The notes under the pieces were generated by a model. The model saw only the letters and a list, made by a program, of their open reading frames with translations. It ran no database searches and was not told the DNA's origin. A stretch of 64,000 nucleotides of DNA from Planctomycetota bacterium (GTDB lineage: Bacteria; Planctomycetota; UBA8108; UBA1146), in the NCBI GenBank assembly GCA_014240375.1, contig JAAZXB010000001.1:240110-304109 (forward strand). Direction: 5' to 3'. The translations under genes and the position numbers were made by a program. Shown here piece by piece: positions 7,460 through 16,641 of this stretch; positions within the stretch are counted from its first letter, which is position 1, and each line of letters starts with the position of its first letter.

Positions 7460-10400
7460 TCAACGTTTTCTCAGCACCACATTCACCTCGAAGGTGTCAC
7501 CCTTCCGTTCGATCAACAGCAACACGGTATCTCCCGCTTCCAACTGTTTCAGAAGGTTCGAGTAGCCCCGGAGGTCATCGATGACGGTACCGTCCAGCGA
7601 AAGGAGTCGATCTCCCTCTCGCAGTCCTGCTTCCTGAGCAGGAGAATCTTTCACCACTCCTTCGATCCTGACACCCGGACCCGTGTCAGCGAAATCTGGA
7701 ATCGTGCCCAGAAATACCCTTCTCCCGGCGGTAGGCGTTGTGGTTTTGGTTCCCGCCGCCCCATCGAGGGTCGAGGTCAGCGGATCGGTACGATCCGATA
7801 GATACAACAGCGCTTCCCGCAACCATGTCGCGACCTCAACCATTCCAGCAGTGTCGACCTTGTCGGCAGTATCTCCTGGACGGTGGTAGTCATCGTGTGG
7901 ACCGGTGGTCAGTTGAATCCCCGGTACACCTAACTCGTGGAAAGGCACCTGATCCGATCCACCGGGATCATCCTTGACCGCCGTGGCTGCAACACCGGTG
8001 GTGAAGCCGATCCCACGGGCGATGTGAATCCATTCGGTCGCGGTGCCGGTTCCCAGTGCCAGCAACCTCCCCTGCGAGAGACGCCCGACGGCATCGATGC
8101 TGATCACCGAAATCGCATCCCTGGCTGGCCACTGCTCCATCGATTCGATGTACCGACGAGCCCCTCGCAACCCCCACTCCTCGGCACTGGTGGCGACGAA
8201 GATGACGGTCCGTGCGGGACGATGGGTTCCCGCCATCATCCGCGCTGTCTCGAGCATCACCGCCACACCGGAGGCGTTGTCGTCGGCTCCGGGGTGGATC
8301 TTGCCCTCATTTCCTGCCCTGACATCGGGCCACCCTCGGCCGAGGTGATCGACGTGAGCGAGGACCACGACCGATTGACCCGACAGCGCTGGATCGTTTC
8401 CGGGGATGACTCCGATGACATTTCGAAGCCTCACACCCTTCTTCAATCGATCGTCGAACTCATCCACGCTCCAGGAATCGAAGTAACTTCCGTCCGGGGC
8501 CCCCGGCTGCAGTCCGATCCCGGAAAACCGATCCGCCACCCACTGGGTCGACTGATGCAGTCCTGCTGAACCATTTCCCCGCCCCTCCCGTTGTGGATCG
8601 GCCAGCCAACCGACATCCGAGATCATTCGATCCGCATCGAGGACGGGACCCGGTCGTGCGAGAGGCTCTCGCGCATCTTCCGGCCCTGCGACCGAAACTC
8701 CCTTCGCCGTCCAGGAGAGGGGGGAAGTGTCAGTCCCCCATTCACCCTTGGCCACGTTGGTCGGTTCCTCCCCTTCGAACAGCAGATAGGAATACTTGCC
8801 GTAGTGAGGCAATTTTCTGGCCAGTCCTGGAATCGCCGCTTTGTTGTAACAACGGATCAAGCCCACGGTGAGATCTTCGTCGGCGGGATGCCGTGCCACC
8901 TGGATCCCGGAGTGATCCTCCGAGATCAAACCTGGCTCTACCCCAGGCGACTGCATCGCCGGGAGTTTCCATATGCCATCGGTCAGGCTGAACTTCTCCT
9001 GCAGCCCCTTGTGAAGGACCGCATTCCGCAAGGTTTCATTCGCCATACCCACCGTCGACTCGCCGAGGATCCACACCGCCCGATCGTGCGAGATCTCTTC
9101 CAGTTCGGTGTCGAGGACGATGTCAACATCTCCATCGGTAGCCCAGGATTCGGCCAGCGCTCGCCATGCCTCGAGCCTCGGACTCCGCGAGGGCAGGATG
9201 ATCAACAGTGATGAGGCGCCGAAGATATCGCCGATGGTCGGTGGAGTCTCCGAACGATCGAGTCGCCGAAACACATCGAAAAACGGGTCGACCCTCACCG
9301 CAGCCACAGTTCCTACCACCTCGAAGGACTGCTGTCGGGGAACGACCCCCTCGTCTCCGGGAGTGAACTCCACCATCTGCTGTTGCCACCAAGATGAAGT
9401 CGTCAGTTGATAATGAACGGGAATCCCAACCTGGTACGGTTCCTGGTGCTGAACCTGGTCGATGCTCACTCGCGAGCTTCCTTCCCCGGATTCCACACTC
9501 AGCTGGAACTCAGGTGCTCCTGTCGTTTCAATCCAGGTTTTCATCCAGTTCACCAGTTCGATCCCAGCCACTTCTCCGATGGAATCGGCAATATCCTCGA
9601 AGGACGCACTCTGAAAAGAAAAGGACGAGTAGAACTCCTGAAGCCCTCGCTTGAATGCATCCTCACCAACCTTCAAGCGGATCATATGCCACAGCATCAG
9701 ACACTTTCCGTAACCCACCGCTTCGGTAGCCCCGGAATGACGACTACGAAATTCACTCAAGGGGAAATCGAGGCCATCCTGGACATAGGATCCGAACTTT
9801 TTCAGGACATCTCGGCGGTACTCTGCTCCCCTGCCCTCACCTTCCTTCATCAGGTGATCGGCGAGGTAAGCGGTGAGTCCCTCGCACCAGTTGCCTGTCT
9901 GATAATCAACATACACAGAGTTGCCCCACCAGTTATGCAGGACCTCGTGCGGGTAGGATGACCTGAGGATGAAGGGGAGCCGGATCACCTGTGGTCCGAG
10001 CAATGTGAACGAAGGCATCCCGTATCCGCTCTCCCAGAAATTCTCCACCAGTGCAAACTTGGAGTACGGATAGGGTCCGATCAATTTCGAGTACATCTCG
10101 ACATATTGAAGAGTCGCTTCGAGGTACTTCGATGCCAGGTTTGGCTCAGCGTCTCGCAAGAATACCTGAGCCTCGAATTGCGGTGTCCCCCTGGAATACT
10201 CGTGAAACTGAGCTGCGATGAGAAAGACCTCTTCCTGCAGCATTCCTTCTTCACTGCTCCAGCGAACCCGGCTCCTGCCCTCTTTACTCGGCAACGACTC
10301 TCTTTTCCCCTGGCTGACCGCAGTCCAGCCCTCGGGTAGGTCCACCACCAGCGAGAAGGACAACTTCCTTCCCTCTGGACGAGGTAACCAGGATGTCGCA

Positions 10401-10855
10401 CCGCCGAGAAAGACTCCTTGATCTTCGATGGTGCCCGGAGTCGAGGAAAAGGATCTACCCGCACCTGAGCCGACCTGCTTCAACTTTTCCTGGATGACAC
10501 CTGCAGCACTGAGTATCACTGGAGAGTTCTCTGGATGCTGCTGCTCGAACTCCACTCTCCACCAGCGACGCGCTACCGGTCGCTGGGGATCGAGTGCGGC
10601 TCCAGATCCATCCTCTGTCGCTTCCTGGATCTGCGTCAAGGAACCCGGCGACTCGAGTTGGGGCGTCAAGCCGGCATGCAGAGGGAACTCGAAGTGGCTC
10701 TGCTCCATACCTTCTGTGGACAGGGTGACGCGCCAGGCGATCGCTCCGGTCGAGGGGTGGAGAAGCACCTCAGCATCGAGTTGAGGCTCCCACCCGGGGG
10801 AATTCACCGCCGGCTGAATGGATAAGATGCTGCTGAAAATCAGGATGAGGTACAT
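7460..10855 (-). CDS. Secreted M1 aminopeptidase - M28 peptidase - PDZ fusion
   Basis: The 1131-residue protein starts with a signal peptide (residues 1-16) and an SD-like AGAGGAG upstream of the ATG. An M1-type gluzincin domain follows: HEVLH at 303-307 and a third ligand Glu325 in WCEGL, with 17 rather than 18 intervening residues, preceded by LVENFWESGYGMPS in place of GAMEN. A linker region (about 450-800) leads to a complete M28 domain with zinc ligands H834 and D858, E892/E893, D921 and H991 (HRPGDT). A PDZ domain (about 1046-1128) ends the protein. It probably degrades peptides outside the cytoplasm. It is divergent from the kinase gene and has no operon partner. Confidence 0.9.
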   Translation of the reverse strand: MYLILIFSSILSIQPAVNSPGWEPQLDAEVLLHPSTGAIAWRVTLSTEGMEQSHFEFPLHAGLTPQLESPGSLTQIQEATEDGSGAALDPQRPVARRWWRVEFEQQHPENSPVILSAAGVIQEKLKQVGSGAGRSFSSTPGTIEDQGVFLGGATSWLPRPEGRKLSFSLVVDLPEGWTAVSQGKRESLPSKEGRSRVRWSSEEGMLQEEVFLIAAQFHEYSRGTPQFEAQVFLRDAEPNLASKYLEATLQYVEMYSKLIGPYPYSKFALVENFWESGYGMPSFTLLGPQVIRLPFILRSSYPHEVLHNWWGNSVYVDYQTGNWCEGLTAYLADHLMKEGEGRGAEYRRDVLKKFGSYVQDGLDFPLSEFRSRHSGATEAVGYGKCLMLWHMIRLKVGEDAFKRGLQEFYSSFSFQSASFEDIADSIGEVAGIELVNWMKTWIETTGAPEFQLSVESGEGSSRVSIDQVQHQEPYQVGIPVHYQLTTSSWWQQQMVEFTPGDEGVVPRQQSFEVVGTVAAVRVDPFFDVFRRLDRSETPPTIGDIFGASSLLIILPSRSPRLEAWRALAESWATDGDVDIVLDTELEEISHDRAVWILGESTVGMANETLRNAVLHKGLQEKFSLTDGIWKLPAMQSPGVEPGLISEDHSGIQVARHPADEDLTVGLIRCYNKAAIPGLARKLPHYGKYSYLLFEGEEPTNVAKGEWGTDTSPLSWTAKGVSVAGPEDAREPLARPGPVLDADRMISDVGWLADPQREGRGNGSAGLHQSTQWVADRFSGIGLQPGAPDGSYFDSWSVDEFDDRLKKGVRLRNVIGVIPGNDPALSGQSVVVLAHVDHLGRGWPDVRAGNEGKIHPGADDNASGVAVMLETARMMAGTHRPARTVIFVATSAEEWGLRGARRYIESMEQWPARDAISVISIDAVGRLSQGRLLALGTGTATEWIHIARGIGFTTGVAATAVKDDPGGSDQVPFHELGVPGIQLTTGPHDDYHRPGDTADKVDTAGMVEVATWLREALLYLSDRTDPLTSTLDGAAGTKTTTPTAGRRVFLGTIPDFADTGPGVRIEGVVKDSPAQEAGLREGDRLLSLDGTVIDDLRGYSNLLKQLEAGDTVLLLIERKGDTFEVNVVLRKR

Positions 10856-13402: not shown

Positions 13403-14002
13403 TCACTCCTCGATCAAGGCTATGACCCTTTTCCAGTCGGCCAGATCGTCCACATCCTCGAGAACCAAGGGGTTCTTCGTGACGACATGATCGACCATCA
13501 GATCCGGAAGAGCTAACAGAGCCCTGAGGTGCTGCGGGCCATCGACTTGCAGAAGAGTTTCGATCTTATCCCTGGTCACGATCACCGGATGACCACGGCG
13601 CATCGAATAAGAGATGATCCAGGCATCGATACTCGAATGGCTTTGACGGGCGGTCTCGGTCAGTTGTTCGACATCCGATTGCCTGACACCGATGACATCT
13701 ACCGGATGAATCAGCATTGCATCCCACTGCCCTGCCACAGAGATTGCAGTCCTGATACTGCTGACCGGCCCATCACTGGGATCATGATTGATCACCAGTG
13801 GAGTTCCAATTCGATCCGCCTCTTCCTGCACTGCCGCACAATGAGTGCCTCCAGCCACCACCATCACTTCATCACATCCACCACTGTGCAGAGTCTGATG
13901 TAGACGATCGAGAATCGATCGGCCGTGAATATTCAGCAAAGCCTTGGGTGAACCGAGCCGACTCGACTCTCCTGCTGCGATGATGACTCCTCGAATCTTC
14001 AC
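13403..14002 (-). CDS. MobA/MocA-like nucleotidyltransferase
   Basis: The 199-residue protein opens with IIAAGESSRLGSPKALL, the nucleotide-binding signature (AAGxSxRxGxxK) of MobA-like NTP transferases. DGPVSSIRTAI and the metal-binding HPVDVIGV follow. Relatives transfer CMP or GMP to molybdopterin, or activate sugars. No Moco biosynthesis or molybdoenzyme gene is in the window, so the acceptor is open. The GTG start at 14002 overlaps the stop of the upstream helicase gene as GTGA, implying coupled translation. Its stop directly abuts the kinase stop on the other strand with no spacer base. Confidence 0.82.
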   Translation of the reverse strand: MKIRGVIIAAGESSRLGSPKALLNIHGRSILDRLHQTLHSGGCDEVMVVAGGTHCAAVQEEADRIGTPLVINHDPSDGPVSSIRTAISVAGQWDAMLIHPVDVIGVRQSDVEQLTETARQSHSSIDAWIISYSMRRGHPVIVTRDKIETLLQVDGPQHLRALLALPDLMVDHVVTKNPLVLEDVDDLADWKRVIALIEE

Positions 14003-16560
14003 CCGGTGTGCTCCTCTACATCCGATTCCGAGAAGAAAGCTTCCAGTCCTGTACGAACTTCATCCCACGTGCCAGCGATGCGTCTGCAATCGGGCAAACT
14101 CGCGAGAAACCGTTTTCCGTAGGGCTTGTTGACGATCCGTGCATCTCCGATGACCACGACACCCCGGTCATCGAGGGTGCGAATCAACCGGCCGAATCCT
14201 TGACGCAACCCCAACACCGCTCGGGGCAATGCGAGGTGAGCAAATGGGCTCTTTCCTCTCGCTTCCAGTTCCTCCGCCCTACCTTGTTCGAGCGGGTGAT
14301 TAGGAACTCTAAATGGCAACCTGGCGATGATCACACAAGACAATGCCGCTCCAGGAACATCGATTCCTTCCCAGTACGACTGATTTCCGAAAAGCACTGC
14401 ATGACCGGAGTCGACGAATCTCCTCAGCAATTCACTCCGGGGGGCTTCACCCTGTACCAGAAGCGGCATGCCAAGCGCCTGCAGACCAGAACGAACCATC
14501 TCTGCCGTTCGCCGAAGCGCTTGATGTGACGTGAACAGGACAAAGGTTCGGCCGTCTGCCGCACGGGCGGTGTCGAGCACCATCTCTACAATCTTCTGGT
14601 CATATCCAGAACTACCCGGATCGGGGATGTCACCCGGCAATCCAAGCAAGACCTGACGCTTCCAATCAAATGGAGAAGAGAAGTCCTCGCGACGAATTCG
14701 CTCCCGCTCGACATGATCCCAGCCCAGCCGATCGCTGAGAAAGTTCCACGATTCCCCGACCCTCAACGTGGCACTGGTCTGGATCACTGTAGAAACCGGG
14801 CCGTATAGGTACTCGGCGAGGAGTTCATCGACGCGTAAAGGGGCTGCACGAAGGACCAGTTGCTTGACAGGTTTCGATGCCATCTCGATCCATGGCTGGA
14901 TTCCACCTGCGGCTCCCAGAACGAAATCGATCGATGAGATCTGCTCGACCACAGAACGAAGTGCCGAACGCATCTCCACCAGGCCTGCCTGAAATTCTAG
15001 TTCCGGTTCGAAGGTCTCCTCTTCAAGAACATCGAAGCAATTTTGCAACTCACCTCTCAACCCATCGAGGCTCTCCCTCACGTCCGCCAGTGGAGGAGAA
15101 ACCACGGTCATCGGAAGCAAACCTTCACGATCCCCGATTCGCGCCATCAACGACCCGTTTTGCCCCGAGGAATCTCCCACCAGATGAGCCGCAGAGAGAA
15201 CCCTGACCTCCAGCCGATCGAGTGCCGCCTCGATCTCCCGTCGGGCGACTCGTACCCGCGGGAGAACATTCATCGACAACAATTCGTGAGCGTGACCCTG
15301 GTGATGGCGAGCGAGGTGGCTGCGTAGCCAGGGAAGACGACCACTCTCTTTTCTACTGCTCTTGCCACGACTGGACACCAGTCGGCCCAGCACCTGGAGA
15401 GCACCTCGGCGAGATACTTCCGCCCCCAGGTGGTGACAGGCCACCTCCTCCAGGTGGTGACCCTCATCGAAGATGAGCTTCTGATATCCAGGAATCACCA
15501 GGTCACTATCGAAATCTCCGGTCGATCTCCGCAGTTTCAGGTCGGCAAAGAGCAGGTGATGATTGACCACCACGATATGTGCACCGAACGACTTTCGCCT
15601 TGCCTCGTAATAGAAGCACTCACGGTAATGCGGGCATCGCGCCTTCAATGATTGATCGGAAGTGGACTGGAAATCGGACCAGATCTCAGCAGGAACCTCG
15701 CCTAGCATCTCCTGGCGAGTGCCATGCTTTGCCTCGCCGAGACGGTCGATCACATCCGCTACCCAGCTCGCTCGCTCTTCATCATCGGAGAAGATCTCGG
15801 GTTCCGTAGCCACCTGCTTGGTCTTTCTCCGGCAAGCATAATTGCCACGCCCCTGGATCAAGGCGAATCGGAAATCGATTCCCAGCACTCTTTGAAGAGC
15901 AGGCAGATCCTTGTGAACCAGTTGTTCGCCAAGCGGAATCGTAGCGGTGGAGACCACCACCCTGCTGCGATTTTTGACCGCCCATAGAATCGCGGGCACC
16001 AGATATGCATAGGACTTCCCGATCCCGGTTCCTGCTTCCAGAGCAGCGATGTCGCCTTGATTGAGAGCCCTCGCGACAGACTTCGCCATCTCCACCTGCC
16101 CGGGGCGTTGCTCATATCCGGGGAAGGATGTGGAAAAGACTCCTCCGTCAGCAAAGATCTGTTCGATCTCGACGGGATCCACTACCACTTCCTCGCGCTC
16201 GGGAAACGGCTCGACGACTCGATTCATCTTGCTGCCATCATTACTGACGATGAAGAATCCGAGACGTCGGCCACCCGCTTCCGAGGCGATCGAAAGGTCG
16301 GCGGGACTGGGAGTGAGATCTCCCCCCGGATGATTGTGGATCAACACCTGAAATCCCTCATCCGCGCGGGAAAGGAAGACAGGCACCTCTGAAGAGCGAC
16401 CTCGTGCGACCGCCTCGACCTGATGGAGTCGGCCCTGGTCATCGACTCGACCGAGGAAGAAGACCTCATTCTGGCCAGCGTCAGCGATCTCGGAAGCGAT
16501 CTGCTGTCGAATAGCAGGAGTCATCCACTGTGCAGTGTCGATTCCTTCGGTACGGCCCAA
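13999..16560 (-). CDS. JAMM/MPN-domain - DinG-type helicase fusion
   Basis: The 853-residue protein joins two enzymes. Residues 1-115 hold a complete JAMM metalloprotease motif: E32, H75-N-H77, seven residues, S85-P-A-D88 (RadC/JAB type). Residues 145-853 are an XPD/DinG superfamily 2 helicase with Walker A AGTGIGKS (176-183), a DEGH box (365-368) and motif VI QGFGRLIR. In the iron-sulfur region I see C243, C309 and C315; a Ser (S304) stands where I would expect the fourth cysteine. The start is a TTG at 16560 with AGAGGA eight bases upstream. Likely role is DNA or RNA:DNA unwinding in repair, with a metalloprotease or deubiquitinase-like activity in cis. It is coupled to the nucleotidyltransferase gene. 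Confidence 0.88.
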   Translation of the reverse strand: MGRTEGIDTAQWMTPAIRQQIASEIADAGQNEVFFLGRVDDQGRLHQVEAVARGRSSEVPVFLSRADEGFQVLIHNHPGGDLTPSPADLSIASEAGGRRLGFFIVSNDGSKMNRVVEPFPEREEVVVDPVEIEQIFADGGVFSTSFPGYEQRPGQVEMAKSVARALNQGDIAALEAGTGIGKSYAYLVPAILWAVKNRSRVVVSTATIPLGEQLVHKDLPALQRVLGIDFRFALIQGRGNYACRRKTKQVATEPEIFSDDEERASWVADVIDRLGEAKHGTRQEMLGEVPAEIWSDFQSTSDQSLKARCPHYRECFYYEARRKSFGAHIVVVNHHLLFADLKLRRSTGDFDSDLVIPGYQKLIFDEGHHLEEVACHHLGAEVSRRGALQVLGRLVSSRGKSSRKESGRLPWLRSHLARHHQGHAHELLSMNVLPRVRVARREIEAALDRLEVRVLSAAHLVGDSSGQNGSLMARIGDREGLLPMTVVSPPLADVRESLDGLRGELQNCFDVLEEETFEPELEFQAGLVEMRSALRSVVEQISSIDFVLGAAGGIQPWIEMASKPVKQLVLRAAPLRVDELLAEYLYGPVSTVIQTSATLRVGESWNFLSDRLGWDHVERERIRREDFSSPFDWKRQVLLGLPGDIPDPGSSGYDQKIVEMVLDTARAADGRTFVLFTSHQALRRTAEMVRSGLQALGMPLLVQGEAPRSELLRRFVDSGHAVLFGNQSYWEGIDVPGAALSCVIIARLPFRVPNHPLEQGRAEELEARGKSPFAHLALPRAVLGLRQGFGRLIRTLDDRGVVVIGDARIVNKPYGKRFLASLPDCRRIAGTWDEVRTGLEAFFSESDVEEHTG

Positions 16561-16641
16561 AATTGTTTCCTCTCCGGGTAGATGGAATCATCGACCCAGA
16601 TCACCCACTCGGCAAGCCCACCGACGCAGTACCGATGAGAA

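Follow-up and report, generated by a model that had tools for sequence, protein, structure and literature searches.

The JAMM-DinG gene and its reading frame

The locus described here lies in a 64,000-nucleotide stretch of DNA from a marine planctomycete (contig JAAZXB010000001.1, positions 240,110 to 304,109), referred to below as the window. Its minus strand carries a gene, called JAMM-DinG in this text, whose product joins a JAB/JAMM domain to a helicase in a single chain. The features of the gene and of its immediate neighbours are as follows.

13403..14002, minus strand: MobA/MocA-like nucleotidyltransferase, downstream of JAMM-DinG and overlapping it by 4 bases
13999..16560, minus strand: RadC-like DinG gene (JAMM-DinG), 853 aa, TTG start
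14026..16122, minus strand: DinG/YoaA-type SF2 helicase, residues 147-845
14179..14202, minus strand: motif VI QGFGRLIR, residues 787-794
15457..15468, minus strand: motif II DEGH, residues 365-368, with D365 and E366 invariant
15616..15834, minus strand: Fe-S region with C243, S304 (in place of Cys), C309 and C315
16012..16038, minus strand: Walker A / motif I EAGTGIGKS, residues 175-183, with E175, G177, T178, G179, G181 and K182 invariant
16201..16518, minus strand: RadC-type JAB/JAMM domain, residues 15-120 (Pfam RadC, model pLDDT 88, Foldseek)
16297..16308, minus strand: S85 and D88 of the H-x-H-x7-S-x2-D motif, invariant
16327..16338, minus strand: HNHP, residues 75-78, with metal-ligand His 75 and 77, invariant
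16465..16467, minus strand: JAMM Glu E32, invariant, aligned with the RadC Glu
16568..16575, minus strand: Shine-Dalgarno-like GGAGAGGA, read directly, 7 nt 5' of the TTG and conserved in L001-L004
16718-18478, minus strand: probable secreted protein, 586 aa, in which two halves of ~200 residues each resemble one another and a dockerin-like stretch lies at the C-terminus

The TTG start is supported by the GGAGAGGA element 7 nt upstream and by the close relatives, in which TTG or GTG is aligned with it. A promoter scan at the gene gave nothing exceeding chance. There is next to no chance that an error of gene model or assembly, or a frameshift, created the fusion: the open frame runs unbroken, with no stop codon, in assemblies made independently for many genera, the start and the linker position are conserved, the fused relatives are spread across genomes with helicase parts that form one clade (98/97), both domains are under purifying selection, and no point in favour of such an artefact was found. 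Compared with the congeneric L002-L005, the JAMM part shows a dN/dS of ~0.11-0.24, against 0.04-0.07 in the helicase part, so that both domains are retained, the JAMM part less strictly.

Two further assignments of the gene were rejected. No phage record spans 80% of the query and, among the matches listed, those from phages are helicase-only. The strong PADLOC matches are CRISPR type IV DinG/Csf4 helicases, reached via the helicase part, in a search that covered JAMM-DinG itself; the genes that recur beside it include none recognised as a defence gene.

Two domains in one chain

An earlier note, made from the letters of this DNA, had described the protein as a JAMM metalloprotease domain fused to a DinG/XPD helicase, with all JAMM residues and main helicase motifs present and one iron-sulfur cysteine apparently replaced by Ser. 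This description was borne out by Pfam, NCBIfam and the 853-aa ORF, down to the exact numbering of the JAMM residues. Across 99 related full-length ORFs, not one departs from E32, H75, H77, S85 or D88; this set holds some species twice via two collections and thus does not amount to 99 independent genomes. The five residues are equally constant in a thinned set of 38 sequences (<80% identity). The Glu and the H-x-H-x7-S-x2-D signature together constitute the JAMM peptidase motif. Pfam RadC scored 25 bits, above its cut-off, at residues 20-92 (Prok-JAB was weak) and matched all 38 thinned members.

The nearest PDB sequence to the domain is RadC 2qlc (E 1.3e-7) and the match to AfJAMM is insignificant (E 0.12), which by sequence places the domain closer to the RadC clade than to the deubiquitinase clade. 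The earlier note would have given up its reading had a structural model failed to bring the JAMM residues together; the AlphaFold2 model of the domain (mean pLDDT 88) has a predicted JAMM-like fold, and among the Foldseek matches listed are RadC 2qlc as well as the JAMM/MPN proteins PfJAMM1, Rpn11, CSN5 and AMSH. The JAMM/MPN+ deubiquitinase-type peptidases (PfJAMM1, CsRpn11, AfJAMM) have the same fold, the same H-x-H-x7-S-x2-D and the upstream Glu, but differ from JAMM-DinG in sequence, and for JAMM-DinG a Ubl partner was not detected.

With RadC (UPF0758) the domain has in common the JAB core E...HNHPSGD..PS..D, whose HNHPSGD..PS..D part reads HNHPGGDLTPSPAD in JAMM-DinG. RadC, however, also has a HhH region, the HPREVF block and the DHIIIG motif. 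The latter two are absent from every JAMM-DinG row shown in the alignment with RadC, and a HhH region is missing too, as only ~14 residues precede the JAB domain. The domain carries an invariant Arg-Gly pair (R53, G54). Judged from these alignments, the N-terminal domain is RadC-type yet not RadC, and a separate true RadC is encoded elsewhere in the same genome.

In the helicase part, Pfam recognised DEAD at residues 162-230 and Helicase_C_2 at 663-824 (140 bits), and the MD1, Fe-S, Arch and MD2 domains are present with conserved ATP and DNA motifs. Sequence matches in the PDB are E. coli DinG, S. aureus DinG, XPD and FANCJ. The top NCBIfam helicase model is YoaA, which scores 558 bits where the curated cut-off is 680. 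In the tree the helicase is placed near YoaA on a long branch, but JAMM-DinG differs from E. coli YoaA by staying under that cut-off, by its extra JAMM domain and by having no HolC partner. The full-length AlphaFold2 model (pLDDT 88, pTM 0.84) has as its top structural matches the DinG crystal structures (6fwr, E 3.5e-41), including DinG bound to ssDNA, from which helicase activity and 5'-to-3' translocation on ssDNA are expected by homology. JAMM-DinG is the only strong DinG/YoaA match in its genomes, and this fits a housekeeping role.

Of the four cluster cysteines, C243, C309 and C315 are kept and the fourth is S304, the equivalent of C194 in EcDinG. Among the 99 ORFs, 59 have Cys at this position, 38 have Ser and 2 have Thr (L081, L089); Cys is found in the members from Desulfuromonadales and Spirochaetota and in the planctomycetes L021-L023. 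All Ser rows form one planctomycete clade on the tree (99/95), which argues for a single fixed Cys-to-Ser change and not a local mutation, and no other Cys that could substitute is kept throughout that clade. Three-Cys variants were noted by Cheng 2025 and still counted as Fe-S domains (PMC11981726); by its sequence the Fe-S domain of JAMM-DinG is such a variant, with a putative [4Fe-4S] cluster site. As a side observation, among stand-alone DinG/YoaA-like helicases of other planctomycetes the first Fe-S Cys is replaced in L116, L117, L122 and L127, and the third is Ser in L129. In all five the missing Cys is thus another one than in JAMM-DinG, so that loss of Fe-S ligands looks recurrent in Planctomycetota.

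The existence of a RadC-DinG fusion is already published. In the review of Cheng 2025, 'RadC-like DinG' is one of ten DinG subgroups, stated there to be without any research, and it was modelled by AlphaFold3 with zinc (PMC11981726). JAMM-DinG is the planctomycete orthologue of this protein. The order of domains is the same as in the published model protein from Desulfuromonas soudanensis (RadC-like domain with E, H, H, D, then MD1, Fe-S, Arch, MD2), the architecture is nearest to YoaA, and HolC is missing from the genome in both cases. A further mark of the subgroup, which it has in common with YoaA, is the alpha-7 helix at the C-terminus of MD2; the JAMM-DinG model is closed by a helix at residues 832-852, a possible counterpart. 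Planctomycetota are unnamed in the main text of that paper (PMC11981726), and the planctomycete clade differs from the published protein by the fixed Fe-S Cys-to-Ser change and by a lineage-specific MobA-like neighbour. What is added here is a planctomycete member, a tree with a single origin, the motif differences from RadC, the fixed change at S304, the standing of the protein as the main DinG/YoaA-type helicase of its genomes and the lack of linked Ubl genes.

Distribution, origin and genomic surroundings

The spread of the fusion, for which the earlier note had proposed a domain search, extends over several phyla. The fused frame is present in 16 of 16 genomes of the same family, in the same-order genome and in every same-class genome with a match covering the N-terminus; one same-class genome, 62% complete, gave no match. 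It also occurs in a few families elsewhere in Planctomycetota, and an even draw of the phylum showed the domain in 36 of 246 genomes, always within a long open frame. When species genomes of bacteria and archaea were scanned, 262 relatives came up, the best 80 of which are mainly from Planctomycetota, Desulfuromonadales (Geobacter, Geomonas, Oryzomonas, Desulfuromonas), Myxococcota and Spirochaetota, and the domain is joined to the helicase wherever the contig is long enough. Three loci are titled Bacillota, Proteobacteria and Chloroflexi (L034, L044 and L087); their genes look planctomycete or Desulfuromonadales, and these are probably mislabelled or mis-binned assemblies.

The helicase parts from Planctomycetota, Desulfuromonadales, Myxococcota and Spirochaetota form one clade (98/97), so a single old fusion explains them, and common descent of the planctomycete and Desulfuromonadales proteins is supported by the tree. 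In the planctomycete relatives L121 and L130 a DnaQ-type exonuclease occupies the same N-terminal place.

The MobA-like gene lies downstream of JAMM-DinG in all own-family loci checked, mostly overlapping it, and more loosely in a few same-class planctomycetes (L018-L020, L053). It is absent outside Planctomycetota among the loci checked, and therefore is not part of the core mechanism; as a functional clue this lineage-specific neighbour was rejected. On the 5' side are the secreted repeat protein, which keeps its place next but upstream to JAMM-DinG in 13 related loci at a distance of one gene, and ATP synthase genes. Clustering of the flanking ORFs of 80 loci gave lineage-specific neighbours only, with no Ubl, E1, E2 or proteasome gene recurring across phyla. 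HolC was not found in the genome, which is 95% complete, by a search that detects HolC in E. coli as a control.

A true RadC stands ~0.7-1.3 kb downstream of JAMM-DinG in three loci of Desulfuromonadales type (L084:5819-6608, L087:4664-5270, L088:3303-3993), the only non-planctomycete loci with such a neighbour; an adjacent match in L098 turned out to be a spurious ORF. Elsewhere in the window, 7460-10855 of the minus strand encodes a predicted 1131-aa protein with M1 aminopeptidase-like, M28 peptidase and PDZ parts in one chain.

Possible roles of the fused domain

The account that we favour, as quite possible if not yet probable, is strand processing coupled to the helicase, at stalled forks or at crosslinks. 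JAMM-DinG, whose RadC-type JAB domain has its catalytic residues intact, would be a vertically kept housekeeping 5'-to-3' helicase of YoaA/DinG type. The helicase would load on ssDNA at stalled forks or crosslinked DNA and then open the duplex. In other DinG proteins an exonuclease holds the place of the JAB domain, which would here hydrolyse the nucleic acid that has been displaced, in strand or end processing. A role in crosslink or fork repair is suggested by analogy with SaDinG and YoaA, and nucleic acid as the substrate of the JAB domain by its position and by the argument made for RadC.

The closest guide to this arrangement is ExoDinG (S. aureus and B. subtilis DinG), which has an enzyme domain at the same N-terminal place and a helicase of the same kind. 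There the domain is a DEDD exonuclease, which Pfam and NCBIfam searches show to be absent from JAMM-DinG, and the Fe-S domain of SaDinG is a pseudo one. In the S. aureus protein the single strand is contacted by motor domain 2 and then by the exonuclease, and both activities are required for mitomycin C and formaldehyde resistance (PMC12345164). Given the N-terminal exonuclease place and this strand path, the simplest mechanism would be that the helicase feeds the strand to the JAB domain. Fusions of RadC to DinG/RAD3 helicases were among the reasons for Iyer et al. 2017 to predict nucleic-acid processing (PMC5512222). However, the literature searched held no report of a RadC-type JAB domain that acts as a nuclease, a DALI search with the RadC-like domain gave metalloproteases and zero nucleases (Cheng 2025, PMC11981726), in agreement with the present Foldseek matches, and E. 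coli radC mutants, according to Attaiech 2008 as cited in PMC11981726, have normal DNA-damage sensitivity. As the domain of JAMM-DinG is without HPREVF and DHIIIG, RadC-based arguments may not carry over to it. The substrate is the weak step of the strand-feeding mechanism, since the structural neighbours of the modelled domain are proteases.

The most interesting alternative to strand processing is a protease acting on DNA-protein crosslinks. The helicase would run into a DNA-bound or crosslinked, possibly tagged, protein and unfold it, and the JAMM domain would cut the protein or the tag. We regard this peptidase role as rather unlikely, and its likening to a one-chain analogue of FANCJ and SPRTN as doubtful to the same degree. 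The characterised JAMM enzymes named in the literature searched are (iso)peptidases, and the structural neighbours PfJAMM1, Rpn11, CSN5 and AMSH agree with the metalloproteases reported in PMC11981726. FANCJ, a relative by sequence, translocates into crosslinked protein and unfolds it, and SPRTN cuts (PMC12279946); loss of ExoDinG in S. aureus causes formaldehyde sensitivity, which its authors, however, read as DNA crosslink repair (PMC12345164). Removal of a protein or ubiquitin-like tag, as suggested by the earlier note, found no support: the nearest sequence is RadC, whose type of JAB domain is argued to be without the ubiquitin-tail groove (Iyer et al., PMC5512222), the neighbourhood suggests no substrate, and JAMM-DinG has no fixed Ubl, E1 or E2 partner. 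Ubiquitin-like (ThiS/MoaD-like) partners, which the note had proposed to seek near orthologues, do not recur across phyla in the 80 clustered loci, and a ThiS search of the genome placed its two ThiS/MoaD-family genes on contigs other than that of JAMM-DinG. That JAMM-DinG could be a bacterial one-polypeptide DNA-protein-crosslink repair machine, built from an XPD/FANCJ-family helicase and a fused metalloprotease, we consider an improbable though attractive analogy; if true, one chain would do what FANCJ and SPRTN do as two proteins in animals.

Third after strand processing and the protease stands a non-catalytic role, which also seems unlikely to us. The domain would bind metal and serve for docking or regulation, with SSB, a polymerase subunit or the Fe-S region as its partner, in place of HolC-type recruitment, and would have no hydrolytic task. 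HolC recruits YoaA in E. coli and its absence from the genome, reported likewise for the subgroup (PMC11981726), means that recruitment would have to come about in some other way. The JAMM domain also evolves faster than the helicase among congeners. Against docking may be set the invariance, in 99 of 99 ORFs, of the five residues of an active JAMM site, which include the catalytic Glu and Ser besides the metal ligands. Pseudo-enzymes of MPN- type normally lose JAMM active residues.

RadC is a common bacterial protein without agreed function. JAMM-DinG has a RadC-type metal site in one covalent chain with a helicase of guessable DNA substrate, which makes this a good family in which to learn whether such sites cut nucleic acid or protein, and its members include those of cultured Geobacteraceae relatives (Geomonas, Oryzomonas).
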